This document shows, piece after piece, positions 25,601 to 41,288 of a DNA stretch of 64,000 nt. The stretch spans positions 868,001 through 932,000 of the forward strand of contig AP017968.1 of NCBI GenBank assembly GCA_002356455.1. Reading direction: 5' to 3'. The translations under genes were made by a program, and so were the position numbers. Below the pieces are notes generated by a model. The model saw only the letters and a program-made list of their open reading frames with translations. It was not told where the DNA came from and made no database searches. Numbering within the stretch: the stretch's first letter is position 1; every line of letters starts with the position of its first letter. The DNA comes from Fusobacterium varium. GTDB taxonomy: Bacteria > Fusobacteriota > Fusobacteriia > Fusobacteriales > Fusobacteriaceae.

Positions 25601-26162
25601 GTTCAAGTTCTACATTACTAAGATTTTTGACAGCTTCATTCTTTTTTATCTGAAATTTTTTTATTCCAGCAGCTTCTTCAATAATTCCTTTTATTTCTTT
25701 TGAGGATGAACCAATAATACGTTCTACTTTTCCTTGTCCAATAACCGAATAAGCACTTTTACCTACTCCAGTATCAAGGAAAAGGTTTCCTATATCTTTC
25801 AATCTTGTTTTCACATCATTTATATAGTATTCATTATCACCAGTGGCATAAAGTTTTCTTGTTACTTTGATTTCCTCATTTTCCAGTGGAAGAAAAGAAT
25901 CAGTGTTGTCTATGTACAAAGAGACTTCAGCTGAATTCATTGGTTTTTTATCTTTTCCACCAGAAAAAATGACATCAGAACTTTCTTTTGCTCTGATATT
26001 TTTATAGGACTGTTCTCCAAGTACCCATAGAACTGCGTCCAGAATATTTGATTTCCCACTTCCATTAGGGCCCACTATAGATGTGATCCCTCTGTTGAAT
26101 TCTATATATACTCTCTCTCCGAAAGATTTGAATCCAAATATTTCAACAGCTTTTAAATACAT
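22644..26162 (-). CDS. smc: Chromosome segregation SMC ATPase
   Basis: Structural maintenance of chromosomes protein, core of the SMC-ScpAB condensin. The N-terminal head has GPNGSGKSNILDAV (Walker A). Long coiled-coil arms flank a hinge at roughly residues 500-650 (GIEGVFISLVTIPERLEKAIEAG region). The C-terminal head has LSGGEKSMVAIAF (signature) and TFLDEIEAALDE (Walker B). 1172 residues, normal for bacterial SMC. The start has a TAGGAGA site. Its promoter must lie in or before the 80 bp separating it from the immA-like gene of the tailocin locus. That locus is transcribed in the same direction, so read-through is possible. Confidence 0.97.
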   Translation of the reverse strand: MYLKAVEIFGFKSFGERVYIEFNRGITSIVGPNGSGKSNILDAVLWVLGEQSYKNIRAKESSDVIFSGGKDKKPMNSAEVSLYIDNTDSFLPLENEEIKVTRKLYATGDNEYYINDVKTRLKDIGNLFLDTGVGKSAYSVIGQGKVERIIGSSSKEIKGIIEEAAGIKKFQIKKNEAVKNLSNVELELEKIDLVLREVKENRDRVEKQAGKAQEYLNLKDERDKLAKGIYMSEFNEKQAQLNDGDAVKEKLTSEAAELEKEFNSIENRLDEIDKEKLVLKKEIEELSGKNQELKREIELKEREKVRISERVEGYKREVSDRHERMKNSDIKISEKLKSLDMLIEERETLKEKIEKLSEENLKFESQLKELENTKKEFDLGMELKKKKVMELELEKLKLLNEIESSSRRVKGSNTKITNLREELSSYDIKLNSAAVELEKAEISKNEKEKKLVEIEERGTFLEEEISKLSQRSNKLSEIVRTAEYDEKRHSAKLQALVRMEENNEGFFKGVKEVLNSKIIGIEGVFISLVTIPERLEKAIEAGIPGNIQDIVVDTGDTAKKAINFLKERKAGRASFLALDTIKVPLKREIKINIPGVIGRAAELVTADERYKSVVEFVLGNLLIVENLDTALKIVKNNMFMGNVVTLSGELMSSRGRITGGDSGNSTASQIFERKKEIRILKETVEKLTAAIKNASAEQNEISKTLENFENEIDKIDSLEDGVRKQLKLAEELYNDYILKKERIEKDRRIVKVELEEEEKYSQEFEKRINSSKDERERVEQVIAEIKADEEHETEKIREINASIEKKKEEFSDVRILFMNSQDRLGQLDREEEREKKEYEFLVDEKRNMEEKTTFLEDEIISLEEKEKILKAEIEERINKYESENTEVQERKTKNETLTEEERSLNKKRKETESYLLHKKDSLNRVEESLERTKIDLERLKDILSTLEDVAAIEVEEEKLKELKDKLKTLDNRLKNFQAVNLLAIEEFKELNDKYIFLTTQKDDLVKGKDVLMELIKEIDDTIHEKFFTAYKEIDANFNQMCMETLNNSEGKLLVLNPENFDECGVEIFVKFKNKKRQTLSLLSGGEKSMVAIAFIMSIFMYKPSPFTFLDEIEAALDEKNTRKLIGKLKEFTEKSQFILITHNKDTMRESESIFGVTMNKEIGISKIVPVKF

Positions 26163-26241: not shown

Positions 26242-26652
26242 TTAATTATTTGCGAGTTCTACTAATTCATTTAAAGTTTTTAAAGTTAATACAGAGTTGC
26301 AATGAAAAATATCAAAATTGAAATCTTTCAGTATTTCTACAGCAAATTGATTTGCCTCTTTTTCCCAAATTGAAGTTTTAGGGAGAGTATGAAAATCTTG
26401 CATAAATCTAATAGTTTTTGAGCTATGTAAGATAGAATGACCTAATTCATGTGACAAAACTATTAAAGTATCTAATTCATTCAAATTTTCATTGATAACG
26501 ATATATTTATTAGATAATATTTTTTTAAAAATTCCCTTAGTTTTTCCTAAATCTTTATATTGGATATCTATTCCAAGATAGTGACATAGTTTGTAGGGAT
26601 CTTTAGTTCCAAATTTTTTATAAAGATTTTTGACTTTTAAAGGAATATTCAT
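26242..26652 (-). CDS. ImmA/IrrE-type metallopeptidase
   Basis: Small zinc-peptidase-like protein with HELGH at residues 68-72, preceded by LIVLS and followed by the KEANQFAVEIL helix containing the third ligand region. This is the ImmA/IrrE (PF06114) layout. Relatives cleave a partner HTH repressor after DNA damage or other signals and so switch on mobile elements or stress genes. The gene begins 2 bp after the repressor gene ends, so the two are translated together. Predicted role: inactivate the adjacent repressor and induce the tail operon. The trigger is unknown. 136 residues. Confidence 0.85.
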   Translation of the reverse strand: MNIPLKVKNLYKKFGTKDPYKLCHYLGIDIQYKDLGKTKGIFKKILSNKYIVINENLNELDTLIVLSHELGHSILHSSKTIRFMQDFHTLPKTSIWEKEANQFAVEILKDFNFDIFHCNSVLTLKTLNELVELANN

Positions 26653-26654
26653 CG

Positions 26655-27062
26655 TTATTCCCCCTTGTTATTTCTTTTATTTTTTCTCTTTTCTCTATTT
26701 TTTTCCTTGGAATCAAAATATAATTCAGTCATTATTTTATAAAGTTTATCTTTATCTTCGTCAGAAATTTTTTCATCATTAAAAAAAAGAGCAGCTTCAC
26801 TCATAAAAGTATCATATTGCAATTTATCTTTTTTTGATAAAAGATTTATTTGTTCGTTTTCTTCAACCCAACCCATAATATATGAAGGTGTAGTTTTTAG
26901 AGCTTTTGCAAAACTAAGAATTTTAGACTGAGGAATATCAACTTTTCCAGATTCTATTTTAGCTATGGATGAACGAGAAATATAACCAAGTTCTTTGGCA
27001 AGTTCTTCTTGAGTTAATCCTAATTTTTCTCTTCTTTCTTTTATTCTATCATATATAGTCAT
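26655..27062 (-). CDS. Cro/CI-type (XRE) repressor
   Basis: N-terminal helix-turn-helix of the XRE family (residues about 6-60: ERREKLGLTQEELAKELGY, SRSSIAKIESGKVDIP), then an acidic/Lys-rich tail of about 70 residues. It has no LexA-like self-cleaving domain, which fits use of a separate ImmA-type protease. It starts behind GGAGG. Divergent from the tail operon, with palindromes GTGAATT-w-AATTCAAC in the shared control region. Predicted repressor of the tail operon and of its own promoter. 135 residues. Confidence 0.88.
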   Translation of the reverse strand: MTIYDRIKERREKLGLTQEELAKELGYISRSSIAKIESGKVDIPQSKILSFAKALKTTPSYIMGWVEENEQINLLSKKDKLQYDTFMSEAALFFNDEKISDEDKDKLYKIMTELYFDSKEKNREKRKNKRNNKGE

Positions 27063-27088
27063 CTTTTTCCTCCATTCTTTTTATTATA

Positions 27089-27117
27089 ATAATATCATTG
27101 ATGTGATTTTATTTCAA
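27089..27117 (-). promoter_or_regulatory. Leftward promoter of the repressor-immA genes
   Basis: Minus-strand TTGAAA (27117-27112), 17-base spacer, TATTAT (27094-27089), ending about 27 bases before the repressor ATG. Operator-like sequence 27103-27118 covers its -35 box, suggesting autoregulation. Confidence 0.75.
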
Positions 27118-27118
27118 C
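27103..27118. promoter_or_regulatory. Operator-like site O1
   Basis: GTGATTTTATTTCAAC: a degenerate form of the site found at 27177 and 27282, overlapping the -35 box of the leftward promoter. Confidence 0.5.
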
Positions 27119-27140
27119 TAAAAAAAATTTTTTAAAAAAA

Positions 27141-27157
27141 GTTGACAAATTTTCAAC
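27141..27157. promoter_or_regulatory. Operator-like site O2
   Basis: GTTGA-n7-TCAAC dyad overlapping the TTGACA box of the rightward promoter. Confidence 0.5.
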
Positions 27158-27170
27158 AAAGTGTTAAAGT
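27142..27170 (+). promoter_or_regulatory. Rightward promoter of the tail operon
   Basis: Consensus TTGACA (27142-27147), 17-base spacer, TAAAGT (27165-27170). One dyad lies on the -35 box and spacer, and a better one (27177-27192) covers the start site, as expected for a repressed phage promoter. The transcript would have an approximately 225-base leader. Confidence 0.65.
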
Positions 27171-27176
27171 TATGTT

Positions 27177-27192
27177 GTGAATTAAATTCAAC
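27177..27192. promoter_or_regulatory. Operator-like site O3
   Basis: GTGAATTAAATTCAAC, a dyad centred on GAATT-A-AATTC, placed at the predicted rightward start site. Confidence 0.65.
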
Positions 27193-27281
27193 AAAAAAGA
27201 ATTTGTATTTTAAGATTTTTGTAATTTAAGTAGCAAAATTTTGTGTTTGTTTTATGAAAAATATTTTTTTTACCATTTTTA

Positions 27282-27297
27282 GTGAATTTAATTCAAC
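27282..27297. promoter_or_regulatory. Operator-like site O4
   Basis: GTGAATTTAATTCAAC, differing from O3 at the central base only. It lies about 105 bp downstream of O3 in the leader, where it could support looping or a roadblock. Confidence 0.65.
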
Positions 27298-27315
27298 AGA
27301 AGGAGGTGGAATAAA

Positions 27316-27400
27316 ATGTATATAATTTTTAGTCTTCATTGAATAAGGAGTAGTTAAAAAGATGGGAGGGATGAAAAAGAAAAATAGAAAAGGTAGGTGA
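27316..27400 (+). other. Leader with two tiny ORFs
   Basis: ATG at 27316 behind AGGAGGT encodes 8 residues (MYIIFSLH), and ATG at 27362 behind GGAG encodes 12 basic residues (MGGMKKKNRKGR) ending 3 bases before the first tail gene. They may be translated leaders or remnants of lost phage genes. No function is assigned. Confidence 0.35.
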
Positions 27401-27403
27401 AGT

Positions 27404-27883
27404 ATGCCTAATAGTGTAAGAAAATATCAAATTTTTAAAAAAACTGAAAAAGATGATGGAATAAGAGTTCCACTAGGACCTTGTAAGTTAAAGTTAGATG
27501 GAATAAATATTGGAAATACTTTAAAAGACGAAGGAACTTCTTTAAAGGTAGTTCCTATCACAGAAGAATTAAAAACAGATGAAAGCAGTGAAGTAAAAGA
27601 AATTTTAGAACTTGGAAGAATAATAACATTTGAAACAGCAGTTATTTTTTCAAATGAATCAATGTCTATCTTAAATTTGAATGGAAATTTAACTAATTTA
27701 GTTAAAAGAGGAAAACTGGAAATAATAACATTAGATGGAACTACTTGTGTAGAATTATATAATGTTAGTTTAATAATAGAACCTAGTTATACTTTCAAAG
27801 AAAATAAAGTTAATATGTTCAAAATAAAAGTTAAGGCATGTAAGAATGAAAACGGAAAAGATATAAATATAATATTTAATTAA
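27404..27883 (+). CDS. Tail-tube-like protein 1 (tentative)
   Basis: First substantial gene of the tail operon, 159 residues. Composition suggests an all-beta protein without signal peptide or membrane segment. Near its N-terminus PLGPCKLKLDG resembles PLGECEIRYTLEG of the next protein, and both then show a strand-rich, acidic region. This suggests distant paralogy, as in tube or tube-initiator subunits. Phage operons of this type place tail terminator or tube genes before the assembly chaperone, so position also fits. I do not recognise a named family. It starts with GGTGAAG as ribosome site and is separated from the next gene by 16 bp. Confidence 0.5.
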   Translation: MPNSVRKYQIFKKTEKDDGIRVPLGPCKLKLDGINIGNTLKDEGTSLKVVPITEELKTDESSEVKEILELGRIITFETAVIFSNESMSILNLNGNLTNLVKRGKLEIITLDGTTCVELYNVSLIIEPSYTFKENKVNMFKIKVKACKNENGKDINIIFN

Positions 27884-27899
27884 AATTAGGAGGTAAAAA

Positions 27900-28424
27900 A
27901 TGTCAATATTAAAAGATTATCCATTAGGAGAATGTGAAATAAGATATACATTAGAAGGTGAAAGTGATGCAGTTATTTTGGGGTTAACTTTAAAAGAATC
28001 AGATACAATATTTACAAATACATTTGATATTTTTAAGATAGAAATGGATCAAATGGAAGGACCATATAAGTCAAAGGTTATTCCATCAGAAACTACTTTA
28101 AAATGTTCAATATGGCTGAATGAAGATATTATTACAAAGTTATCAAATGTTTATGAAGCTGGAGCCACAGGAACTGCCTTTTCTACTGCAGGAAAAGAGA
28201 TGAAATTTGGAAAATTAGAAATTCACCCTATGTCAGCAGGGATATCGAAAGAATTTGATATTATTGGAACTAGAGTATTTTGTAAAATTGATACCAATAT
28301 AACATTTAAAAAAGAAGGATTAGCAAAATGTGATTTAACATTTGAATTTTCGTCTGATGAAGATCCAGATTCACCAACATATAAAAAATTATTTACAATT
28401 GGGAATTATACTCCTAAACCTTAG
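27900..28424 (+). CDS. Tail-tube-like protein 2, candidate major tube subunit
   Basis: 174 residues, predicted mostly beta, starting MSILKDYPLGECEI with a strong AGGAGGT site. Position directly before the chaperone-like gene and the tape measure is the usual place of the major tail tube protein. The size is within the range of siphophage tube subunits. A stable hairpin follows its stop codon inside the operon, which often accompanies highly expressed structural genes. Family assignment rests on synteny and fold-like composition only. A structural search would be needed to confirm. Confidence 0.55.
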   Translation: MSILKDYPLGECEIRYTLEGESDAVILGLTLKESDTIFTNTFDIFKIEMDQMEGPYKSKVIPSETTLKCSIWLNEDIITKLSNVYEAGATGTAFSTAGKEMKFGKLEIHPMSAGISKEFDIIGTRVFCKIDTNITFKKEGLAKCDLTFEFSSDEDPDSPTYKKLFTIGNYTPKP

Positions 28425-28431
28425 TATATTT

Positions 28432-28463
28432 AATATCCCTCTATAATTTTTTAGAGGGATATT
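28432..28463 (+). terminator. Intra-operon hairpin after the tube gene
   Basis: Perfect 11-bp stem AATATCCCTCT/AGAGGGATATT with a 10-base loop in the 73-bp gap between the tube-like and chaperone-like genes. Only CTTAAAT follows, so it may be a leaky terminator or an mRNA-stability stem that favours tube protein over downstream genes. Confidence 0.6.
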
Positions 28464-28497
28464 CTTAAATATAAAATTCATAGAGGAGGGATAATTT

Positions 28498-29121
28498 ATG
28501 ATAAAATTTGAAAATTTAAATAAATTTATAAGAGAGAAAGAAAAAATTTTGATAAGATTTAAAAATTATGAAATTAAAGAACCAACAGTTCAAGAATGGA
28601 TTTATATAAATACTTTAAATTTTGAACAAGATTTTAGAAAAATTTCTAAAAGTATGATAGAAATAATGATTCCAGATTTAGAATGTGATATTTTAACTAA
28701 TTTAGAAATGGGAATATGTATAAATAAGTGCCTAAAGGTATTATCTGGAAATAATAACAAAGAAGAACAAGAAAAAAATAAAGAAGAACAAGAAAATAGT
28801 GAAGATATAACAATATCTTTCACTTATTTATTAACTAAATTTTGTCGATATATGCATACATCTTTGGAAGAAACTTTATCGATGAATGTATTTATCTTTT
28901 TTGAATTATTAGAAGGAATAGAAGTTGTAATTGCAGAAGAAAGTCTAAGAGTAGCAGAAATATTTGATAATCATATTCATTTAAAAGCAAAAAATGGACA
29001 TGAAAAATACAGAAAAACTTTAAATAAATATAGAGATATTTATCAAAAAAAAGGAATCAAAATATTGCAGGGAATTGACATTGAAGGATTAAAAAACTTA
29101 AAAAATATGTTAGGAGGTTAA
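28498..29121 (+). CDS. Tail assembly chaperone-like protein (tentative)
   Basis: 207 residues between the tube and tape-measure genes, the slot of gpG/gpGT-type tail chaperones. It starts with MIKFENLNKFIREKEKILIRFKNYEIKEPT, a short beta-rich domain typical of proteins that describe tail core interactions, then is helical. A low-complexity block (NNNKEEQEKNKEEQEN) lies near residue 85. I see no downstream overlapping frame, so the programmed frameshift seen in lambda G/GT is apparently absent. Strong GAGGAGGG site. The tape measure begins 2 bases after its stop. Assignment is by position. Confidence 0.5.
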   Translation: MIKFENLNKFIREKEKILIRFKNYEIKEPTVQEWIYINTLNFEQDFRKISKSMIEIMIPDLECDILTNLEMGICINKCLKVLSGNNNKEEQEKNKEEQENSEDITISFTYLLTKFCRYMHTSLEETLSMNVFIFFELLEGIEVVIAEESLRVAEIFDNHIHLKAKNGHEKYRKTLNKYRDIYQKKGIKILQGIDIEGLKNLKNMLGG

Positions 29122-29122
29122 A

Positions 29123-31852
29123 ATGGGAATGGGAAATTTTATTGGTGAAATTGGGAGTGGTTTTAAAGAAGAACTTATACCTTCTGGCGAAGAAATAGGA
29201 AAAATGCTTGCTGAAAATATAAAAATAGCTACGAGAGAGATAATAGAGTTTCAAAAAGAATTAGCTAATTTAAATACAATATTAAAAGTTTCTCAAACAG
29301 AGTTAAATAAATATGGAGAAAAATTTATTGATTTGTCTATAAATACTGGGATAAATAAAAAAGAAGTTTTAGAAGGAGCACAGCATATACTAACTCTGGG
29401 AGTAAAAAAAAATGAACTTTTAGATTTTTTAGAAATAACAGCTAAAACGGCTACCGCTGGCCAAATAACAACCAATGCAGCAGCAGAAATGTTGCAGACA
29501 ATTACCAAGGCATATGGAACTTCATTGAGGGAAGCAGAGGCTATTGCTGATACTTTGTTAACAATACAAGGTAAAACGTCAATATCACTTGGAATGTTAG
29601 AAGAACCTTTAAAAGCTATAGCAGCAGTATCAGGACCATTAGGAATAAATTTTGATGAAGTAGGAGCAGCAATGATTCAATTCATTAGAAATGAGAATAC
29701 TGCTTCTGAAGCAGCATCTATGTTAAAAAGTATCTTTATAGAATTATCAACAGAAGGCTATAAAGCTGCTGAAACATTTGAAAGTCTTTCAGGAATGACT
29801 TTTGAAAGTTTTATAGCAAGTGGAGGGACCCTTCAGGAAACATTAGAATTATTAGAAAGATCTGCACAAGAAAATAATCAAAGTCTAAAAGAAATGTTTT
29901 CAAGTGTTGAAGCAGGGAATGCAGCTTTTTTATTAACAGGAATGAATTCAGAGGGATTTTCAAGACATCTTGAGAATATGAAAAATAATTCAGGGGAAAT
30001 GTCAGCAGCCTATACAGCAGCTACAGCAAACATAAAAGATGAATGGGATAAATTACTAAATGCAATGACATCTCATTGGGGAAGATTTGTTTCGTTCTTT
30101 GAAAAACCATTATACATGACAATAAAAGAGGTAAGACAACTAGTAGATGGACAGGACAATGGTGAAGAAAATCTAAATGAAACAAAGAGAAAGATAGCAG
30201 AAAATGAAAAAGAAATTCAAAAAATATTGGCTATAGATAATTTAAATAATATTCAAAAAGAAAGAATGATGAAAAGACATGTTGAAATAATTGAAAAATT
30301 AGAAAAAGAAAAAAGAGAAACTGAAAATAAGATAATGGAAGATAATTACCAAAAGAATATTACAGCTTATAAAAATTATCAAAAAAATTTAAATAAGTAT
30401 TTGAAAGATGATTATGCAGGACAAGAGAGAGAAGCCAGAAATTATTTGAAAACAATGGCAAAATTAAATGATGAATTGTATAAAAGTAAAAATCCTAAAA
30501 TTAGTTACAGTGAAAGACAGGAATTAACAGAAGAAAAAGAAATAATAGAAAAAAGAATAAAGTTTTTTAATGAAAAAATAGAAATTCAAGAAAAATATCA
30601 AAGACAGCAAACAGCTTTAAAAAATGAAGAGAAAGAACTTTTAAATCAGCACAATAAAACAATTAGTTCAGCAGAAGGAGAATATTTAAAAAATAAAAAA
30701 AATTATATTGAAGAACAAGAAAAGCTTTTAAATATGGGAGTGATTTCGAAAGAAGAATATAATAAAAATTTGGAAAAAAAAGATAGAGAGCTATTAAACA
30801 TTCAAAAGAATTCAAATGTAGAATCATTAAAAAATTTAGAAGAGTATTATAAAAAAGTTGGAAATCTTGAAAAAGTAGATGAATATAGAAAAAAAAGACT
30901 TAAATTAGAAATAGATATAAAATCAAATACATCCATAACTGCTGGAGGAGACTTTAATGATATAGAAAATACTTATCTTGAAGAAGAGAGGAAAAAAAGA
31001 AAAGAATTTCAAGCACATATTTTAGAAGATGAATGGTTATATATGGAGCAATTAGCAGCTTTGCGAGAAGAGGGGGTATATACTGAAAAGGCAACAGAAG
31101 AAATTGCAGAAGAAACAAGAATGAGATTGGCTGAAAGAAAGCTTCAGTATGAAGAGGAAGAATTAGAAAAAAGATTAGAATTTTATGCTTTAAATAATCA
31201 ATATTCTGAAAAATACAGTGATACTCAGATTGCATTGGCGGAAAATAAACTTAAACAGCAAAAAAATCAAATGGAAAAAGATAAAAAAAATAGAAGTTCA
31301 AAGATAAAATGGGAAGAATGGGCAAGTAAATATGAGGTTGATATATATGCAAGATCAGAAGGTGCACTTCTTTCAAGCCTTGATGCAATTATGAGTGGAC
31401 AGATAAAATCCTTGGATGATTTTAAAAAATTTGCTCAACTTCAATTAGCTGAATTATTATTTGCACTTGGACAGGAAAATGCAGCTAAAGCAATATCTAA
31501 AACAGCAGAAGCAATAGGATATGCAACGAATCCATTTACAGTTTCATTAGCACCACCAGCATTTGCATCAGCTGCAAAATTTGCAACAGTAGCTGCTGCA
31601 TTTGGAGTAGCGGCTTTAGCTATTTCACCTAATGAAAGTGCAGAAAGTAATGGAGAAAACTCAAATACTAATATTGCTACAAAATATGATGAAGGAATAG
31701 AAGAAAGGTTAGAAACTTCAAGTCAAGAAAGTGAAGGAACTGTAATGATAGATGTTTCTGATTCTCAAATGAGTAAACTATGGATAAAGCAAATAGAAAA
31801 AGAGCTCAATGATGGTTATAATGTGACTCTTGTTGGAAAAAAGAAAATTTAA
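29123..31852 (+). CDS. Phage tail tape measure protein (TP901 type)
   Basis: 909 residues. The region of about 40-320 shows the TP901-type tape-measure core, with repeated Ala-rich helices such as KKNELLDFLEITAKTATAGQ, NAAAEMLQTITKAYGTSLRE and a gap ending in IKDEWDKLLNAM. A long charged coiled coil follows (about 345-760), then an Ala-rich hydrophobic patch (FAQLQLAELLFALGQENAAKAI, PPAFASAAKFATVAAAFGVAALA) expected near the end of such proteins. The protein sets tail length and fills the tube. Using the general figure of about 1.5 angstrom per residue, the tail would be roughly 135 nm. Intact and central to the tailocin call. Confidence 0.9.
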   Translation: MGMGNFIGEIGSGFKEELIPSGEEIGKMLAENIKIATREIIEFQKELANLNTILKVSQTELNKYGEKFIDLSINTGINKKEVLEGAQHILTLGVKKNELLDFLEITAKTATAGQITTNAAAEMLQTITKAYGTSLREAEAIADTLLTIQGKTSISLGMLEEPLKAIAAVSGPLGINFDEVGAAMIQFIRNENTASEAASMLKSIFIELSTEGYKAAETFESLSGMTFESFIASGGTLQETLELLERSAQENNQSLKEMFSSVEAGNAAFLLTGMNSEGFSRHLENMKNNSGEMSAAYTAATANIKDEWDKLLNAMTSHWGRFVSFFEKPLYMTIKEVRQLVDGQDNGEENLNETKRKIAENEKEIQKILAIDNLNNIQKERMMKRHVEIIEKLEKEKRETENKIMEDNYQKNITAYKNYQKNLNKYLKDDYAGQEREARNYLKTMAKLNDELYKSKNPKISYSERQELTEEKEIIEKRIKFFNEKIEIQEKYQRQQTALKNEEKELLNQHNKTISSAEGEYLKNKKNYIEEQEKLLNMGVISKEEYNKNLEKKDRELLNIQKNSNVESLKNLEEYYKKVGNLEKVDEYRKKRLKLEIDIKSNTSITAGGDFNDIENTYLEEERKKRKEFQAHILEDEWLYMEQLAALREEGVYTEKATEEIAEETRMRLAERKLQYEEEELEKRLEFYALNNQYSEKYSDTQIALAENKLKQQKNQMEKDKKNRSSKIKWEEWASKYEVDIYARSEGALLSSLDAIMSGQIKSLDDFKKFAQLQLAELLFALGQENAAKAISKTAEAIGYATNPFTVSLAPPAFASAAKFATVAAAFGVAALAISPNESAESNGENSNTNIATKYDEGIEERLETSSQESEGTVMIDVSDSQMSKLWIKQIEKELNDGYNVTLVGKKKI

Positions 31853-31869
31853 TAGGAGGTGTTTAAATA

Positions 31870-32280
31870 GTGCAAATATTAACTTTAAATTCTATTAATA
31901 GTTTAAAAGAAAACAAAATAAAAGGATGCAAATATGAAGGAATAGAAGATGAGAACGGATGTATATATCAAAAAAGTGAGTCAGGAGAAGAATTCAATAT
32001 TGTCAGATGGATTGAACATATTTATACAATTTCTTTACAAATTTTAACGTATCAAGAATGTGAAAATATAATAAAAGAATTTTTAGAAGCAAAAAAAAAT
32101 AGAAAAAATATATCAATTTTAAAAAAAATATTAGTTTTAAAAGGATATATAGATATGAAAAAAGTTCCTGGAGAACCTAAATTCTACTTTGAACTTAAAG
32201 ACATTAAGCCTAATCAGAGTATAGGAAAACCCTTTTATGAAATGTCTATAAAAGTAAAAGAGCGGGTGGAGTTATTATGA
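31870..32280 (+). CDS. Small tail protein of unknown function
   Basis: 136 residues, GTG start behind AGGAGGTG. It begins MQILTLNSINSLKENKIKGCKYEG and has a central SLQILTYQECENIIKEFLEAKKN helix. There is no signal peptide or membrane segment. Located between the tape measure and the hub-like gene, where distal-tail (Dit) or tail-completion proteins are found, though it is short for a Dit protein. The stop codon overlaps the next start (ATGA), so the two are coupled. I do not recognise the family. Confidence 0.55.
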   Translation: MQILTLNSINSLKENKIKGCKYEGIEDENGCIYQKSESGEEFNIVRWIEHIYTISLQILTYQECENIIKEFLEAKKNRKNISILKKILVLKGYIDMKKVPGEPKFYFELKDIKPNQSIGKPFYEMSIKVKERVELL

Positions 32281-33890
32281 ATATTTTAAAAGATTCTAAA
32301 GAAATGAAAAGTATTGATTATTCAAAAGTCTATTATCATTATGCAGTAAAGATATATGATACACTACGTTCAGGAAATTATTCTAAGCCTCTTTATTTAA
32401 GTACAAAAGATGGCATAAAATTAGAAAATGTTTTATGCAAACCATATATGAATATACCTAAGGGTGGAGGAACTGTAATTTCTCCAAAGGATTCACACTC
32501 TTCAGTTAGTTCAATTAACTTTAATATTGTAAATATAAATTATGAAATATCAAAATGGCTTTATGAAAGATTAAATTCCAATTCAACAATGGTGTATGGA
32601 GAGATGGTGGATATATTTGCTATATGTGGTGATGGAAGTTTTAAGTTAATATATAGGGGAATTATAAGAAGTATTTCTAATGATGAATTTGAAAGTGAGT
32701 ATGAAATAGAGGTTTCTGATTTTCAAGATAGGCTCAAATCATCAATTTTTGACAGAGAACTTTCAAAATATTCTAATGAAACTATTTTAGATATTAATAA
32801 TTGTAGACTTCCATATAAAATGGTTAATGGAGTAAGAAAAGGATTTTATATAGAAGAAAGAAATGAAGAAGAAACTGATGAAAATGGAAATAATATCCCA
32901 ACTAGAGTAATAACATTTACAGGACATGTAATAGATATGGTTGAAATGATATTTCAAATAGTATTTTCAACACCAGTTTTAGAAGTTCAGCTTCCATATT
33001 TAACTAATAAATGGATAGATTTTGTTGATATGAATTCATTGAATTCTGTAAGAGCAACATTGAATAGAGCTGTGTATAATTTTTATTTTGAATTTAGAGA
33101 ACCAATAGATGATCCTTATGAGTTTTTAATTGAAAATATTTATAAGCCATGTGCTATATTTCCATATCTTAGTCCAGAGGGAAAATTGGGGCTAAAGTTA
33201 CATAAACAACCAGTAGCAGGAACAGAAGGAATAACATTATCAGAAGAAAATATAATCTCTATAAATGGAAAAACTCTTACTAATGATAACATAGTGAATA
33301 ATATGATTATTAAATATGACTATGATTTTAAAAAAAATAAGGAAAAGAGTAAAAGATATTTTTCATCTTCATCATCTTTTAATAAATTTAAAATGCTTAT
33401 TCCTAACACACCTGATGAATATGAAATTAAAGGCATAAATAAACTATCAGCTACAGATAAAGCAACTTTTTCAGCATCCTTAGCAGATTCAATTTTTAGT
33501 AGATATGGTCTTCCAGGAATAGAATTGGATATAACAGTTCCATTAGAAGTAGCAATGAAATATAAAGTTGGAGATTATCTTTTTCTTACTCATAATACCT
33601 TAGTAGCATGGGAAGGGTTAAAACAAGGAAATCCAGGAATAATGAAAGAAGATATAAGTGACAATGATAAATATAATGGAGTTGCTTATTTTGATGTTGA
33701 ACATGATTGGGGAGGTTTTATAACAGATAATACCTTAGGAAAAGCTATAGATGGAAATTGGATTATTACAACAATTGAAAAAGAAATAAGTTATAAATTA
33801 TTTAATGACACAGATAGTAATTTTAAAAGTTGTTTGGATAATCACAATTATATAAGACAATGGCTTAAAAAGGAGGGAATAAATGTCTAA
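32277..33890 (+). CDS. Tail hub/tip-like protein (tentative)
   Basis: 537 residues, predicted beta-rich with no export signal. It carries an N-terminal region rich in aromatic strands (VYYHYAVKIYDTLRSGNYSKPLYL) and a middle region with VEVQLPYL- and YDPYEFLIE-like strand patterns. Its size and position after the tape measure are those of tail hub or tail-associated lysin-type baseplate proteins, such as gp27-like folds. No peptidase or glycosidase motif was recognised, so it may be structural only. It overlaps the previous gene by 4 bp and the next by 8 bp. Confidence 0.5.
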   Translation: MNILKDSKEMKSIDYSKVYYHYAVKIYDTLRSGNYSKPLYLSTKDGIKLENVLCKPYMNIPKGGGTVISPKDSHSSVSSINFNIVNINYEISKWLYERLNSNSTMVYGEMVDIFAICGDGSFKLIYRGIIRSISNDEFESEYEIEVSDFQDRLKSSIFDRELSKYSNETILDINNCRLPYKMVNGVRKGFYIEERNEEETDENGNNIPTRVITFTGHVIDMVEMIFQIVFSTPVLEVQLPYLTNKWIDFVDMNSLNSVRATLNRAVYNFYFEFREPIDDPYEFLIENIYKPCAIFPYLSPEGKLGLKLHKQPVAGTEGITLSEENIISINGKTLTNDNIVNNMIIKYDYDFKKNKEKSKRYFSSSSSFNKFKMLIPNTPDEYEIKGINKLSATDKATFSASLADSIFSRYGLPGIELDITVPLEVAMKYKVGDYLFLTHNTLVAWEGLKQGNPGIMKEDISDNDKYNGVAYFDVEHDWGGFITDNTLGKAIDGNWIITTIEKEISYKLFNDTDSNFKSCLDNHNYIRQWLKKEGINV

Positions 33891-34842
33891 ATTGATGGAG
33901 ATAATTGAGAAAAGCCCTAATTTTGAAAATGGAACAGCAGTATTAAAATTTTTAGATACTTCTTTTACCATGTTAACTAGAAAAATTGGAAGTAAAATAG
34001 GAGCAAATTTCATCACTGCAAAAAAGGGAGATCCTTTAAGCAAAGAATTATTAGTTTCATTGAATCAAGATCAGTTAGTTTTAAAAAATAAACTTTTAGA
34101 ATGGATAAATAAGTATAATTTATGGATAAATTCAATAAAAAATAAAATAGTTGGAGTCACAAATTTTTATTATAATTTTTCATCTTTAGTGGATTATACA
34201 AGTAAATATATAATTAATGGAACACTAGCAGATTATTATATGCTTACAGAAATTGTAAATGCTGAAAAAGAATTATATGAATTTGGATATTATTTTGCTA
34301 AAAATCATATGCTGACTATTCAAAATCAGCTTAAACAATGGAGTATAACACAACCATACGGAAGTTGTGTAAATAGTGCTGAAATTGAATTTGAAGTAAG
34401 AAACAGTGGAATGTGGTCTATAGAAAATGATGGAGGATTAGGTGTAACTTTAGATAATAATAATAAACATGATAAAAGATGGATATATGTAAGTGGAATT
34501 CAAGGAATAGCTTTAGGAGAAACCAGAACAATTATAGTAAAAGCAGATAATAGTCCATCCAATAATAATTATAAAATATATGCCTTATGCTATTTTTCAA
34601 TAACAAGAGCTAAACTGAATAGTGGAATTGATGATGGAAAAATTGTATTTAAAGCGTGGGGAGAATCATACGATACTACTCCAAGTGATGGTGGTGGCGA
34701 TGGAAAAAGTTTAAGAAGCGGATCATATTATGACAAAGTGAGAAGTGGACCAAATGTAAAAAGTTGGACTGGGAAAATATCTCCACATTTTAATACAGAA
34801 GATATAACATTAGCGTGGATAGTATCAAGAGTTTTAGTTTAA
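33883..34842 (+). CDS. Tail-tip or baseplate protein of unknown function
   Basis: 319 residues. The N-terminal 170 residues are largely helical (KNKLLEWINKYNLWINSIKNK). The C-terminal part is beta-rich, with a Gly/Ser segment (TTPSDGGGDGKSLRSGSYYDK) that looks like a flexible linker. No family was recognised. The gene overlaps the hub-like gene and precedes the BppU-type fibre gene by 21 bp. It may connect the fibre to the tip or be a second adhesin; this is inferred from position. Confidence 0.5.
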   Translation: MSKLMEIIEKSPNFENGTAVLKFLDTSFTMLTRKIGSKIGANFITAKKGDPLSKELLVSLNQDQLVLKNKLLEWINKYNLWINSIKNKIVGVTNFYYNFSSLVDYTSKYIINGTLADYYMLTEIVNAEKELYEFGYYFAKNHMLTIQNQLKQWSITQPYGSCVNSAEIEFEVRNSGMWSIENDGGLGVTLDNNNKHDKRWIYVSGIQGIALGETRTIIVKADNSPSNNNYKIYALCYFSITRAKLNSGIDDGKIVFKAWGESYDTTPSDGGGDGKSLRSGSYYDKVRSGPNVKSWTGKISPHFNTEDITLAWIVSRVLV

Positions 34843-34863
34843 AAATTAAGGAGGAAGATAATT

Positions 34864-36837
34864 ATGAAAAGAATTTTTGAAATAAAAATAGATATAAATA
34901 AAGGAATTACTTATAAAGAAGAGCCATTTTTTACACAAAGTGATAGTGGAACACATTTTTTAAGAGTAATATTTAAAGATCCCATAGATTTTACAAATAA
35001 ATCTATGAAAGTAAATTTTATAAAACCAAATAAAGAGGTCATTTATGAAATGATTCCTTTTATGAGTGGAAATAATATTATAAAAGTACCTAATAATGCA
35101 ATAGATATAATAGGAAATGTACTGATAGAAATTGTACTTATAGATGGAAAAAATATATTAACAACTAATAAATTAGCAGTAATAAATGTAGTAGAAACTT
35201 CTGCAGGAGCTAATTTAACAATGGTTCCTGGAAATAATTTTCAACTTGAAATAAATGAATTAGTAGAAGAATTAGCTAGAATTTTAAGAGAAGCAAAGAA
35301 TGAATTAGATGAAAAAAGCAAAGAAAAAAAAGAGGAGATAAATCAATATACAGAAGATAGAAAAGAAGAATTAGAAGGGTACACAAATGATAAAAAAGAA
35401 GATTTAAATAATTATAGTCAAAATAAGAAAGAAGAATTAGAAGAATATACAATTGATAAAAAGAAAAATTTAGATAATCACATCATAGAAAAAAAAGAAG
35501 AAGTAAAAACATATGTAGAAATAAAAAAAGATGAAATAGATGAGTATATAGAAGAAAATAGAAAAAATTTAAAAGGGGAACAAGGAGAACAAGGAATACA
35601 AGGAGAACAAGGGGTTAAAGGAGAAAAGGGAGATATTAATACTCTGACAATTGGAAATGTTCAAAAAGGTGAAACTGCAGCAGCAGAGATAAAAGGGGAA
35701 AGCCCTAATCAAATATTGAATTTAACTTTACCTAAAGGAGATAAAGGAGAAAAGGGATTAAAAGGAAATGGAATAAGGAAAACAGAATATTTGGGTGAAG
35801 ATGAAAGTTTTACTTATTATAAATTTATTTATGATGATGAAAGTGAATTTAAATGGAAATGTCCAATGCAAATAATAGGGCAAGGAAGCATGGAACCAGG
35901 AAGTTTGGTAGAAACATTCAGCAGAACTTCTGAAACTCCAGAAAATTACTTATCATTAGAAAATTATAAAGCTATAAAAATAGATGAATATCCAGAAATG
36001 GCAGGAAAGTTTCCAATTACTACAACAAAGTGGGAAAGATTAAACCCTAACATTAATTCTGGAACGGGAAATGATGAGTTTAAAGTTCATATGACTTATT
36101 TTGAACAAACAAATGAGGTTATTTCACATGAAATGGATGCTTTGCCACTTATTGATGCTATAAATGGAGGAGGAGAAAAAATAAATTATGTTCAATTTCC
36201 ATTTGCTGCCAGTCAACCGCAGGAACAGGGAGCGACTGTTGTTCCTCTTCATATATGGTTTTCAGGCTCATTAGTAAGAGAAGCTCGAGCTAGAAATCAA
36301 AAAATATTATGTATATTTCATGTAACATTTACAGGGTATGATAGAAGTATATACAATGAAAATAATACAATATGGAATAGTGTAGATATAACTTGTGGAG
36401 AGAGTTTGACATTTTTAGAGGAGGAATATAAACTTGCCAGAACAATGCATTCTTGTTGGAAACATCCTAATACTCTTGAATATCAAGGGTTTTATGAGGC
36501 TCATGGAGTACAATACAATCAAATGGCATTTACAATAGATTATTTACCTACTCATATGAATGGTGGTGACAGTCCAGATCCTAATCATATAGGGATTGCA
36601 TTTGATAATTTAACAAATAATTTTACTGGTATGTATATTCATAAAATAGAATTATGGAAACAGGAAAGAACTGAAGAAAATGTATTAGATATTCCACCAT
36701 ATATTTTTGTGCCATATGCGATTAATTTTACTAAATGGAGTAATGATATTAGTGGGGATATAGGAACTTCAAGAGAATTATATCCAATTGAATATCATCT
36801 AAAAAAGCAAATATATCTTGGAAAAAAGATTGTTTAA
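34864..36837 (+). CDS. BppU-type baseplate upper protein with collagen-like stalk and receptor-binding domain
   Basis: 657 residues with clear modules. Residues 1-130 resemble the N-terminal BppU domain (PF10651) that docks fibres on siphophage baseplates. About 149-235 is a run of 10-12-residue charged repeats (YTEDRKEELEG, YTNDKKEDLNN and so on), likely a trimeric coiled coil. About 237-297 is collagen-like Gly-X-Y (GEQGEQGIQGEQGVKGEKGD), broken by a TIGNVQKGETAAAEI insert typical of phage fibres. The C-terminal 300 residues are predicted beta and unassigned, and should bind the target-cell surface. This protein would set the killing range of a tailocin. Confidence 0.8.
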   Translation: MKRIFEIKIDINKGITYKEEPFFTQSDSGTHFLRVIFKDPIDFTNKSMKVNFIKPNKEVIYEMIPFMSGNNIIKVPNNAIDIIGNVLIEIVLIDGKNILTTNKLAVINVVETSAGANLTMVPGNNFQLEINELVEELARILREAKNELDEKSKEKKEEINQYTEDRKEELEGYTNDKKEDLNNYSQNKKEELEEYTIDKKKNLDNHIIEKKEEVKTYVEIKKDEIDEYIEENRKNLKGEQGEQGIQGEQGVKGEKGDINTLTIGNVQKGETAAAEIKGESPNQILNLTLPKGDKGEKGLKGNGIRKTEYLGEDESFTYYKFIYDDESEFKWKCPMQIIGQGSMEPGSLVETFSRTSETPENYLSLENYKAIKIDEYPEMAGKFPITTTKWERLNPNINSGTGNDEFKVHMTYFEQTNEVISHEMDALPLIDAINGGGEKINYVQFPFAASQPQEQGATVVPLHIWFSGSLVREARARNQKILCIFHVTFTGYDRSIYNENNTIWNSVDITCGESLTFLEEEYKLARTMHSCWKHPNTLEYQGFYEAHGVQYNQMAFTIDYLPTHMNGGDSPDPNHIGIAFDNLTNNFTGMYIHKIELWKQERTEENVLDIPPYIFVPYAINFTKWSNDISGDIGTSRELYPIEYHLKKQIYLGKKIV

Positions 36838-36868
36838 TGGATTAAAATAAAGCTATTTAGGAGAAAGA

Positions 36869-37315
36869 ATGAATAAAAAGTTATCTGAAGAAGGAGTAAA
36901 ATTTTTAATAAAAGAAGAAGGGGAAAGATTTACTGCTTATAGATGTCAAGCTGGTGTATTGACCATAGGAATAGGACATACTGGAAAAGAAGTAATTGAA
37001 GGAATGAAAATTTCAAAAGATCAATCAAGAGAATTACTAAAAAAAGATTTAGAGAAATTTGAAAAAGTTTTGAATAAAATTGTAAAAGTAGAAATTACAC
37101 AATATCAGTTTGATGCTCTTATTAGTTTAATGTTCAATATTGGAGTATATGCTTTTGAGAAGAGTACTCTTATTAAAAAGATAAACTCTAATGCTGATAT
37201 TTTAGAAGTGGAAAAAGAGTTTAGAAAATGGAAGATTGGAGGTGGAAAAATTTTATTAGTACTGCAAAAAAGAAGGGAAAGAGAAATAAAATTATATAGG
37301 GGGGAATTGTGCTAG
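36869..37315 (+). CDS. Phage lysozyme (GH24 endolysin)
   Basis: 148 residues, T4/P1-lysozyme family. The catalytic triad follows E-8-C-5-T: Glu17, Cys26, Thr32 in EEGERFTAYRCQAGVLTIGIGHT. Cys in place of Asp is the arrangement known from P1 Lyz-type endolysins. It cleaves peptidoglycan glycan strands. No signal peptide or N-terminal membrane (SAR) segment is visible, so it should depend on the holin-like product of the next gene for access to the wall. The end overlaps the next gene by 7 bp. Together they provide release of tail particles. Confidence 0.9.
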   Translation: MNKKLSEEGVKFLIKEEGERFTAYRCQAGVLTIGIGHTGKEVIEGMKISKDQSRELLKKDLEKFEKVLNKIVKVEITQYQFDALISLMFNIGVYAFEKSTLIKKINSNADILEVEKEFRKWKIGGGKILLVLQKRREREIKLYRGELC

Positions 37316-37791
37316 TTAAAGAATGGATAATCTTAATTTGCGGAATATTATTAGCACTTATAATATTGTATAAACATAAAAGAGAGCATCTTGAAAAAAT
37401 AACATATTATTTTGTGATTCAAGCAGAAGAACTATTTAAAAATGGACATGGAAAAGAAAAACTTCAGTTTGTTATTAAGAAATTAAAAGAAAAAATACCT
37501 TGGTATTTTTCAATATTAATATCAGAAAAAGTGATTATAGAGATTATAGAAAATACATTAAAAATTCTTCAAGAATTTTTTAAAGATTCAAAAGAAAAGC
37601 AATTGCTAATATTGGATAAAGTTTTAGAAGTTACTGAAAAGAGGAATTATGATAATTTAATAGAAGTAACTGAGGTTATGAAAAAAGAAGTGGAAGATAA
37701 TGGATATATAGAAGGATTTTTAGAAATAAAAAGTAATTTTAAAGGCAATCATACTGCATGTGGTGGAATAAAAGCCAAAATAAAATTATAA
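37309..37791 (+). CDS. Holin-like membrane protein (LLH type, tentative)
   Basis: 160 residues, GTG start with AGGGGGG site, overlapping the lysozyme gene. A single N-terminal membrane segment (EWIILICGILLALIILY) is followed by a cytoplasmic helical region with AEELFKNGHGKEKLQFVIKKLKEKIP, a pattern seen in LLH-family phage holins. The remaining 80 residues are charged helices. Likely the pore or lysis regulator of the tailocin. The C-terminal extension is longer than in most small holins, so part of the protein could do something else. Confidence 0.7.
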   Translation: MLVKEWIILICGILLALIILYKHKREHLEKITYYFVIQAEELFKNGHGKEKLQFVIKKLKEKIPWYFSILISEKVIIEIIENTLKILQEFFKDSKEKQLLILDKVLEVTEKRNYDNLIEVTEVMKKEVEDNGYIEGFLEIKSNFKGNHTACGGIKAKIKL

Positions 37792-37902
37792 AAATAGTAA
37801 AAGAATGAGAAACTGTAAATAATAAATTGTAAAGTCACTAAATCTAATATATAATAAGAGGTAATTCAGACACTAACTTATTAAAATGATGGAGGCACAC
37901 AA

Positions 37903-40079: not shown

Positions 40080-41288
40080 TTAGCGATATTCTTTCCAGCA
40101 AATGGAGCCTGTATGTATATTAAAATATGATATTTTTTTAACTTTCATTCTGGCATTACATTTAAAACAATAAAAAGGATTTACTCCAAAAGCTTTCCAT
40201 ATTTCAAGTTGATAAAAAGTAGAATTGGAATATTTAGAGACATATTTTCTCATGAATTTCATGATATTTTTAAGTTCTGATTTAATATTTCTAGAATAGA
40301 TTCCAAAGCGCCTAATCATTTTGAAATGTTTAGGGGGAATGTGAATAATTAATTTAGAAAGAAATGTTTCTGCATCTAAAGTAAGCTCAATTCTTTGTTT
40401 ATCATCAGCAAGACTTTCATAATAGAAAGTAACCTTATTATCATAGAAATCAATAATTTTATATTCTGCGATAGGAGCTCTTGACAGGTATCTGCCAATA
40501 TATTTAATTGCATAAATATTATTATTTAAATCATTTTTTGCAACATTGAAAAAGAATCTTGTATTTTTGCGATAAAGGTAGTTAGCAGCAGCATAAGCTT
40601 TAGCTTTAATTTCAGGCTTGTCATAATTTCCAGATTTAACAATATCAATAACCATTTTTTTCCATTGTCCAGCAATGGAATTGACATGAAAATATTTTTT
40701 TTCAAGAAATTGGTAGTTTTTATTGAATCCACCTAAAGTAACAATAGCATGAATATGAGGATTCCATTTAAGATCGCGTCCAAAGGTATGAATAACAGTA
40801 ATCAATCCATAATGAATGATATCTGAGTTAGTAAAGTATTTAGAGGAATATTTTGAAATTTTATGAATTCTTTGATTTTTTGCTTTAATGTTATGAAATT
40901 GATATTTAAAAACATCATTAACAGCATAAGCAAGCTTAGTTAAAAGGTCTCTATCATAGAAGAAAAACATTCTAAGTTCTTCAGGAATAGTAAAAAGGAC
41001 ACTTCTATGTTTAACATCAATAAGAGAAGTGGAAGTTTTTTCAGTTCAAACAGCAGAATAACGTTTACCGCAGGAAGGACAAAATCTAGATTTACAAGTA
41101 ACTTTAATTTTATGCGCCTCATGACAATTAGGGCATTGAAGAGAGAGAAAAGATTTATCAATAGAACAGGCTAAGAATTTTTGAATAGTCTGTTTAACAT
41201 CCTCAAAATGCTCATTTTTAAAATATTTTTTGATTTTACCTAAAAGATTTGTTATATTGATTTTAGAGATAATATGTTTGATTTGCAT
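40080..41288 (-). pseudogene. IS91-family (Y2, HUH) transposase broken by one in-frame TGA
   Basis: Read from 41288 on the minus strand. The N-terminal zinc domain has CPNC and CKSRFCPSCGKRY, then an in-frame TGA at 41048-41046 where a Trp (TGG) would fit GKRYSAV-W-TEKTSTS. The frame continues, without shift, through 25 codons to Met at 40970 and on to the end, for about 402 residues in total. The catalytic part is intact: NPHIHAIVTLGG (HUH) and IKYIGRYLSR (the two tyrosines). The start has AAGGAG. One substitution would restore it, so inactivation is probably recent. Hairpins at 40054-40077 and 41340-41376 bracket it. Confidence 0.85.

Follow-up and report, generated by a model that had tools for sequence, protein, structure and literature searches.

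The window examined here is a stretch of 64,000 nucleotides from the Fusobacterium varium Fv113-g1 chromosome (GCA_002356455.1, contig AP017968.1, positions 868,001 to 932,000), and at its positions 26242-37791 lies a compact phage tail locus that I interpret, with a probability of roughly 0.8, as an F-type (non-contractile) tailocin. The locus consists of 12 intact open reading frames (ORFs), two on the minus strand, encoding an M78 metalloprotease and a helix-turn-helix (HTH) repressor, and ten on the plus strand. A sequence-only reading of this DNA had described divergent repressor and protease genes followed by ten intact genes in siphophage tail order, and both descriptions hold: the two regulatory genes have profile matches (PF06114 and PF01381) on the minus strand while the tail genes are on the plus strand, all ORFs are unbroken, and their order equals that of full prophages. 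A check for loss of frame within the window locus itself, i.e. in one genome, found no gene broken.

The protease gene (26242..26652, minus strand; PF06114 Peptidase_M78, E=4.2e-14, with an HELGH motif) is of the ImmA/IrrE type, a candidate anti-repressor, and its product shares 49% identity with the protease encoded next to the repressor gene of a full prophage resident in the same chromosome (L050). The ImmR-like repressor gene (26655..27062, minus strand; PF01381 HTH_3, E=1.6e-16) encodes a protein 37% identical to the repressor of that prophage. The pair is divergent from the tail genes and directly upstream of them. A candidate tail-operon promoter of the sigma-70 type, TTGACA-17-TAAAGT with a TG ahead of the second hexamer, is present at 27142..27170 (plus strand; consensus match only), and the operator-like near-palindrome TTGTGAATTAAATTCAACA, with a putative function at this position, occurs in two plus-strand copies, at 27175-27193, immediately 3' of the -10 hexamer, and at 27280-27298 with 2 mismatches; these two sites compare with a mean of 0.16 in shuffled sequences. 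In ICEBs1, the ImmR/ImmA system likewise pairs an HTH repressor with an M78 protease (see also PMC8960796). The window pair matches this layout and the arrangement fits a switch of the ImmR/ImmA kind, in which cleavage of the repressor is predicted by analogy. While the pair faces the early genes in the resident prophage, it faces the tail genes directly in the window locus.

All further genes of the locus are on the plus strand. Gene A (27404..27883) encodes a tube-fold protein and is, by its AlphaFold model and its position, a candidate tail terminator or cap: the model (pLDDT 78) finds phage tail tubes, a contractile-system cap and the diffocin collar in Foldseek (E ~5e-4 to 2e-3), and in prophages the gene sits between the connector and tube genes. 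Gene B (27900..28424) is the candidate major tail tube gene, 88% identical to the prophage protein at the same position; its low-confidence model (pLDDT 61) weakly resembles tail tubes and is too poor to prove the assignment. Gene C (28498..29121), by position the tail assembly chaperone, is 55-57% identical to the prophage homologues between the tube and the tape measure protein (TMP). The TMP of 909 aa (29123..31852) matches PhageMin_Tail of the TP901 type (E=2.6e-25), in agreement with the sequence-only reading. The tail tip follows with gene D (31870..32280; 76% identical to its prophage homologue), gene E, a large tip or hub protein (32277..33890; 77-80%), and gene F, a tip or fibre adaptor protein (33883..34842; 53-59%). 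The tail genes other than those for the TMP and the fibre gave essentially no informative family match and are placed by their relatives; searches of Pfam, PHROG and PDB gave no match for D, E and F, and two genome-contig scans and the phage collection gave no relative of E. The tail gene set with its tape measure is complete and siphophage-type, and profile searches of the locus ORFs gave no sheath-type match, the trait of R-type tailocins and of extracellular contractile injection systems (eCIS).

The fibre gene G (34864..36837) encodes a phage-like N-terminus, a coiled coil, a collagen-like stalk and a C-terminal receptor-binding domain (from ~35770). Of the "BppU-like fibre with collagen stalk" announced earlier, the stalk stands, whereas the likeness to BppU finds no profile match. 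The lysozyme proposed at the same time is certain: the endolysin gene (36869..37315) is of the T4 type (PF00959 Phage_lysozyme, E=1.4e-40), and its product is 62% identical to the endolysin of L106, a headed prophage with a second tail type that is described below. The last gene (37309..37791) encodes a protein with one strong N-terminal hydrophobic segment, and its designation as holin-like can be kept by homology (45-50% identity to proteins adjoining the lysis genes in L012, L038, L039 and L106; phrog_15303, E=1e-11), while the profile matches are weak (PF09682, E=0.003, under the cut-off; phrog_6918 'holin', E=0.007). The window locus is thus a mosaic: its lysozyme and holin-like protein, at 62% and 50% identity, match those of L106, a phage of another tail type.

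The tail module A-B-C-TMP-D-E-F-G recurs in identical order in ten full prophage loci (L011+L050, L012, L013, L051, L052, L053 and L037-L040), which come from the window's own chromosome (~2.48-2.51 Mb, L011+L050), from the genomes G010, G001, G036, G041 and G042, and from four viral contigs. This synteny rules out a chance gene order. In a survey of 98 Fusobacteriota genomes, one per species, with the source genome as G000, seven loci carry this tail family, and the window locus is the only headless one among them. Beside the tail genes of L011+L050, profiles identify a Mu-type portal fused to protein F, Terminase_3, a Neck1/Phage_tail_S protein and a decoration protein, and the far end of this prophage (L054) carries the C-terminal part of a large serine recombinase, as read from the sequence; the recombinase is a further difference from the window locus. 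Compared with L011, the proteins of the window locus are 88% (B), 76-77% (D and E) and 51-59% identical (A, at 59%, C, F and the TMP), with a lower value for the fibre. These headed prophages of the Fusobacteriaceae, with a Mu-like head and a siphovirus tail, thus share the A-G order and, in L050, the HTH/M78 pair with the window locus, but differ from it in their head and connector genes (by profile for L011+L050), a full-length TMP N-terminus and another fibre C-terminus.

No capsid, portal, terminase, connector, replication or integrase gene was found in 26242-37791. When nine proteins of a sibling prophage, covering terminase, portal, protease, decoration, major capsid and connector up to gene A, were searched against the whole window, gene A alone was matched, the other two alignments being short with E of at least 0.1. 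The earlier statement that head, packaging, connector, sheath and integrase genes are lacking between smc and the S9 peptidase gene is therefore borne out, and so is the tail-only layout of an F-type tailocin, by gene content, gene order and the absence of head genes. A phage satellite similar to the phage-inducible chromosomal islands, or another integrative element, was rejected in the absence of an integrase, a replication gene and flanking repeats of at least 9 bp; a packaging signal was not searched for.

Two kinds of additional genes were observed in the headed prophages. Radical-SAM-type genes lie in the structural region, usually near the fibre genes, of L011 (4928-6379, minus strand; PF04055, E=6e-10), L037 (14628-16079, plus), L051 (2777-3571, plus) and L052 (5534-6454, minus), the latter three recognised by a CxxxCxYCY-like motif; they possibly encode enzymes modifying a virion protein, and none is present in the headless loci. 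Small lipoprotein-like genes, candidate superinfection-exclusion genes, are inserted between the TMP gene and gene D on the strand opposite to the tail in L011 (11540-12103), L012 (10918-11499), L039 (8803-9384) and L051 (10799-11371), and are missing from the window locus.

The fibre links the window locus to a second headless locus. While its N-terminal ~350 aa are homologous to the fibres of the sibling prophages, the C-terminal 355 aa have full-length matches in the 98 genomes only in fibres of 576-582 aa from G000, G008, G009 and G010, at 38-44% identity. These fibres belong to a tail locus adjoining gap-pgk and an acetyltransferase gene (L091 4884-16183, corresponding to G000:C1 ~154.9-166.2 kb; also L092, L093 and L094), which is syntenic in these four species. 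The receptor-binding domain is thus present in five of five headless loci, the window and the four pgk loci, and was detected neither in the headed loci compared, nor in the rest of the 98 genomes, nor in two viral-contig scans; headed loci of both tail types match at most its first ~55 residues.

The pgk locus encodes, in this order, an S24/CI-type repressor, tube, chaperone, TMP, a 238-aa protein, a hub of 578 aa, a 236-aa protein, the fibre, and a 192-aa and a 120-aa protein, the genes of the latter two occupying the lysis position; no head genes were found in it. It resembles the window locus in being headless, in its collagen-stalk fibre with the shared receptor-binding domain, in its lysis-position genes and in its N-terminally reduced TMP, but belongs to another tail family (tube of 265 aa, hub of 578 aa), has an S24/CI-type repressor and is conserved in four species. 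The second tail type also occurs in full prophages, namely in G000 (at 1.51 Mb; tube 88%, hub 86% identical), in G009 and G014 and in two viral contigs. Between species, omega is ~0.03-0.15 for the repressor, tube, chaperone, 238-aa, hub and 120-aa genes and 0.08-0.22 for the 192-aa gene, which indicates purifying selection in the core genes, whereas the TMP (0.45-0.56) and the fibre (~0.5 between allele groups) are both variable, with hypervariability at the N-terminus of the TMP and at the end of the fibre. Judged from these sequences, this is what should be expected of a maintained weapon with exchangeable specificity, and for a conserved tailocin the pgk locus argues more strongly than the window locus does. 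In G010 the pgk tube gene is frameshifted (L094 6065-6900). As the S9 peptidase gene of the same assembly is also split (L043 12873-14854), these interruptions may be assembly errors. The R-type tailocins of Pseudomonas and Pectobacterium are reported to show the same pattern of recombining fibre ends on a conserved tail core (PMC6331570, PMC13195805), though with contractile tails.

The TMP sets the headless loci apart from their headed relatives in a directional manner. A segment of ~37 residues at the N-terminus is found in ten of ten headed homologues and is missing from the window TMP. Over residues 29-300 the window TMP is 37-48% identical to L011, where L011 and L012 share 91-97% and L011 and L013 51-71%, while over residues 826-900 near the C-terminus the window is as close to L011 (69%) as L012 is (69%). 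The whole TMP has 103 window-unique versus 23 L011-unique changes (chi-square 51), an excess that is absent from genes A, B, D and F and at most mild in C and E. In a tree of the N-terminal part the window branch has a length of 1.14 changes per site, while no single headed branch exceeds 0.31, and the similarity of the window TMP to six outgroups (27-36%) is below that of every headed member (36-47%), these being about equal among themselves. The effect is greater in the pgk locus, with TMPs of 735-893 aa versus 1384-1492 aa in headed siblings. By TMP length, the pgk tails would reach only about half the length of their siblings' tails, while the window tails would nearly equal those of the sibling phage (TMPs of 909 and 940 aa). 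The pgk TMPs retain ~570 C-terminal residues, 59-65% identical to L015, and are without the N-terminal part including the PhageMin_Tail-type region, which the headed siblings conserve at 56-58%. In siphophages such as T5 the C-terminus of the TMP forms a hub-bound trimer in the tip, and the N-terminus is taken to account for the density at the head end, with a possible DNA contact (PMC11784142). Given these positions, both headless loci have altered the end of the TMP that would serve the head and the DNA, and have kept the end that serves the tip. Such a pattern would be expected of two independently derived, working tailocins; it is unlike neutral decay, as decay should hit the tube and tip genes too.

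The locus lies between smc (minus strand, start at 26162) on its left and the S9 peptidase gene (37903; profile E=8e-56) on its right. In the related species G008, G009, G010 and G011 these two genes are directly adjacent, none of the related genomes has a full prophage at the site, and relative to the empty sites flank homology stops at ~26247 and restarts at ~37767-37804, with ~195 bp of the empty-site intergenic region absent from the window. The adjacency and the breaks in homology therefore mark the locus as an insertion specific to the strain or species. No direct repeats of at least 9 bp common to both ends were found near them, and an Rfam search of the locus gave no match. Synonymous divergence (dS) between the window tail genes and headed relatives is ~0.6-1.4; the flanking genes, compared among the closest species, range from 0.21 (S9, G009) to 0.53 (smc, G009 and G010). 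Probably the locus had diverged before it was acquired by transfer. Further to the right, an IS91-like transposase gene (Y2_Tnp/Zn_Tnp_IS91; 40080-41288, minus strand), with copies also in L041, L054 and L091, is split by one in-frame TGA directly after CPSCGKRYSAV (or SAL), its halves otherwise forming one frame. The identical TGA in five of five copies inspected, from two genomes, suggests read-through or recoding; the element is probably ISFv1, counted 47 times in PMC5720691.

The tailocin reading is built on what is observed in these sequences: which genes are present, their order and unbroken state, the lack of head genes, derivation of the tail module from a prophage, a receptor-binding domain restricted to headless loci and a change at the head end of the TMP. 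From this I infer particle formation, lysis, killing, regulation and inducibility as follows. The HTH repressor would silence the tail promoter by binding the operator-like repeats, until DNA damage or another stress leads the M78 protease to inactivate it, as in an ICEBs1-type ImmR/ImmA system. The operon would then give a complete headless siphophage tail, with A as candidate terminator or cap, B as tube, C as chaperone, the TMP, D-F as tip and G as fibre, and the holin-like protein and the lysozyme would burst the producer cell. Freed tails may attach to related Fusobacterium cells via the C-terminal domain of G and may then breach the target membrane by ejecting the TMP, with its conserved C-terminus at the tip.

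Several points weigh against this reading. The locus is present in one of the 98 genomes and missing from the four nearest species, and its intactness there could stem from recent arrival. The tube and tip assignments are candidates drawn mainly from position and homology. Synonymous sites relative to the headed relatives are near saturation, so that dN/dS between window and prophages is uninformative on function, and the rate shifts are not datable to the headless state; the TMP pattern is accordingly one of two loci seen at near-saturated divergence. Finally, the resident full prophage of the same tail family might supply heads.

One alternative concerns a single step and would leave the tailocin reading as such intact: the N-terminus of the window TMP could have been swapped in from an unsampled headed lineage instead of being eroded after head loss. 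The near-saturation and the window row's lack of a supported placement in the N-terminal tree are compatible with a swap, which I consider possible though rather unlikely. However, the closest relatives of this N-terminus are still within its own tail family (44-48%), with nothing better in the 98 genomes, in 50,697 phage records (best ~27%) or in a viral-contig scan, and a swap within the family would not by itself explain why the window TMP has a lower similarity to all six outgroups than the headed TMPs have.

Alternatively, the locus could be a recently trapped, decaying prophage remnant, of which the tail and lysis module is intact by happenstance and makes nothing useful. Its presence in a single genome, the existence of sibling full prophages and the mosaic with lysis genes resembling those of another phage type would agree with this. 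However, the deletion must have taken every non-tail gene but the immunity pair while sparing twelve intact genes, and a simple deletion from the resident prophage is rejected, as there the tail genes and the repressor share one orientation, while in the window locus the tail genes point away from the repressor, a layout such a deletion would not yield. Moreover, I favour a tailocin over a decaying prophage because the receptor-binding end of the fibre is found elsewhere only in the second headless locus, conserved in four species, and because both headless TMPs have lost or eroded the N-terminus and kept the C-terminus, where headed relatives keep both; this convergence with the conserved pgk tailocin would support the tailocin reading and makes a remnant improbable. 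That the window tails join heads of the resident full prophage (G000:C1 ~2.48-2.51 Mb) and alter its host range, for which the identities of tube (88%) and D/E (76-77%) and the retained candidate terminator A could speak, is very improbable: identity is no more than 59% for gene A; the TMP end near the head, with its possible DNA contact in full siphophages (PMC11784142), is truncated and eroded in the window locus and not in headed relatives; the receptor-binding domain otherwise occurs only in headless loci; and genes for packaging or integration are lacking from the locus.

F-type pyocins of Pseudomonas aeruginosa have a headless non-contractile tail operon of siphophage-tail origin with lysis genes and a regulator. 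The window locus shares this composition; however, it has a repressor/M78 protease pair in place of the pyocin regulators and belongs to another phylum, and the likeness seen is one of layout. Monocins of Listeria monocytogenes are likewise compact non-contractile tail bacteriocins, of a Gram-positive host; the gene A model is weakly similar in structure to monocin tube chains (ranks 28 and 31), and the likeness seen is otherwise again one of layout. Among 5.4 million open papers searched, none was found to describe a tailocin in Fusobacterium or Fusobacteriota, and the sequence-only reading likewise knew of none, subscription papers being mostly outside the search. F-type tailocins as such are known and the window locus is probably a further one; the greater originality lies in comparing headless and headed loci in pairs and in the shared receptor-binding domain.

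The chromosome itself offers a comparison, as it holds two unrelated headless loci and, for each of them, a headed sibling prophage; this makes it testable from sequence which tail parts serve the head and the DNA and which serve killing. I tentatively propose, with somewhat less than even confidence, a rule by which the TMP N-terminus is free to shrink or diverge after head loss while the tip-binding, membrane-acting C-terminus is fixed. Two unrelated tailocin families in one genome would exemplify it, against headed siblings with full-length TMPs, and these families share a receptor-binding domain unseen in headed phage. If true, the rule would provide a sequence signature separating working tailocins from prophage remnants. 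Colitis and colorectal cancer have been associated with members of Fusobacterium (PMC5720691). If the proposed killing is true, a self-made narrow-spectrum particle would be a starting point for targeted control of Fusobacterium and for understanding its competition in the gut.

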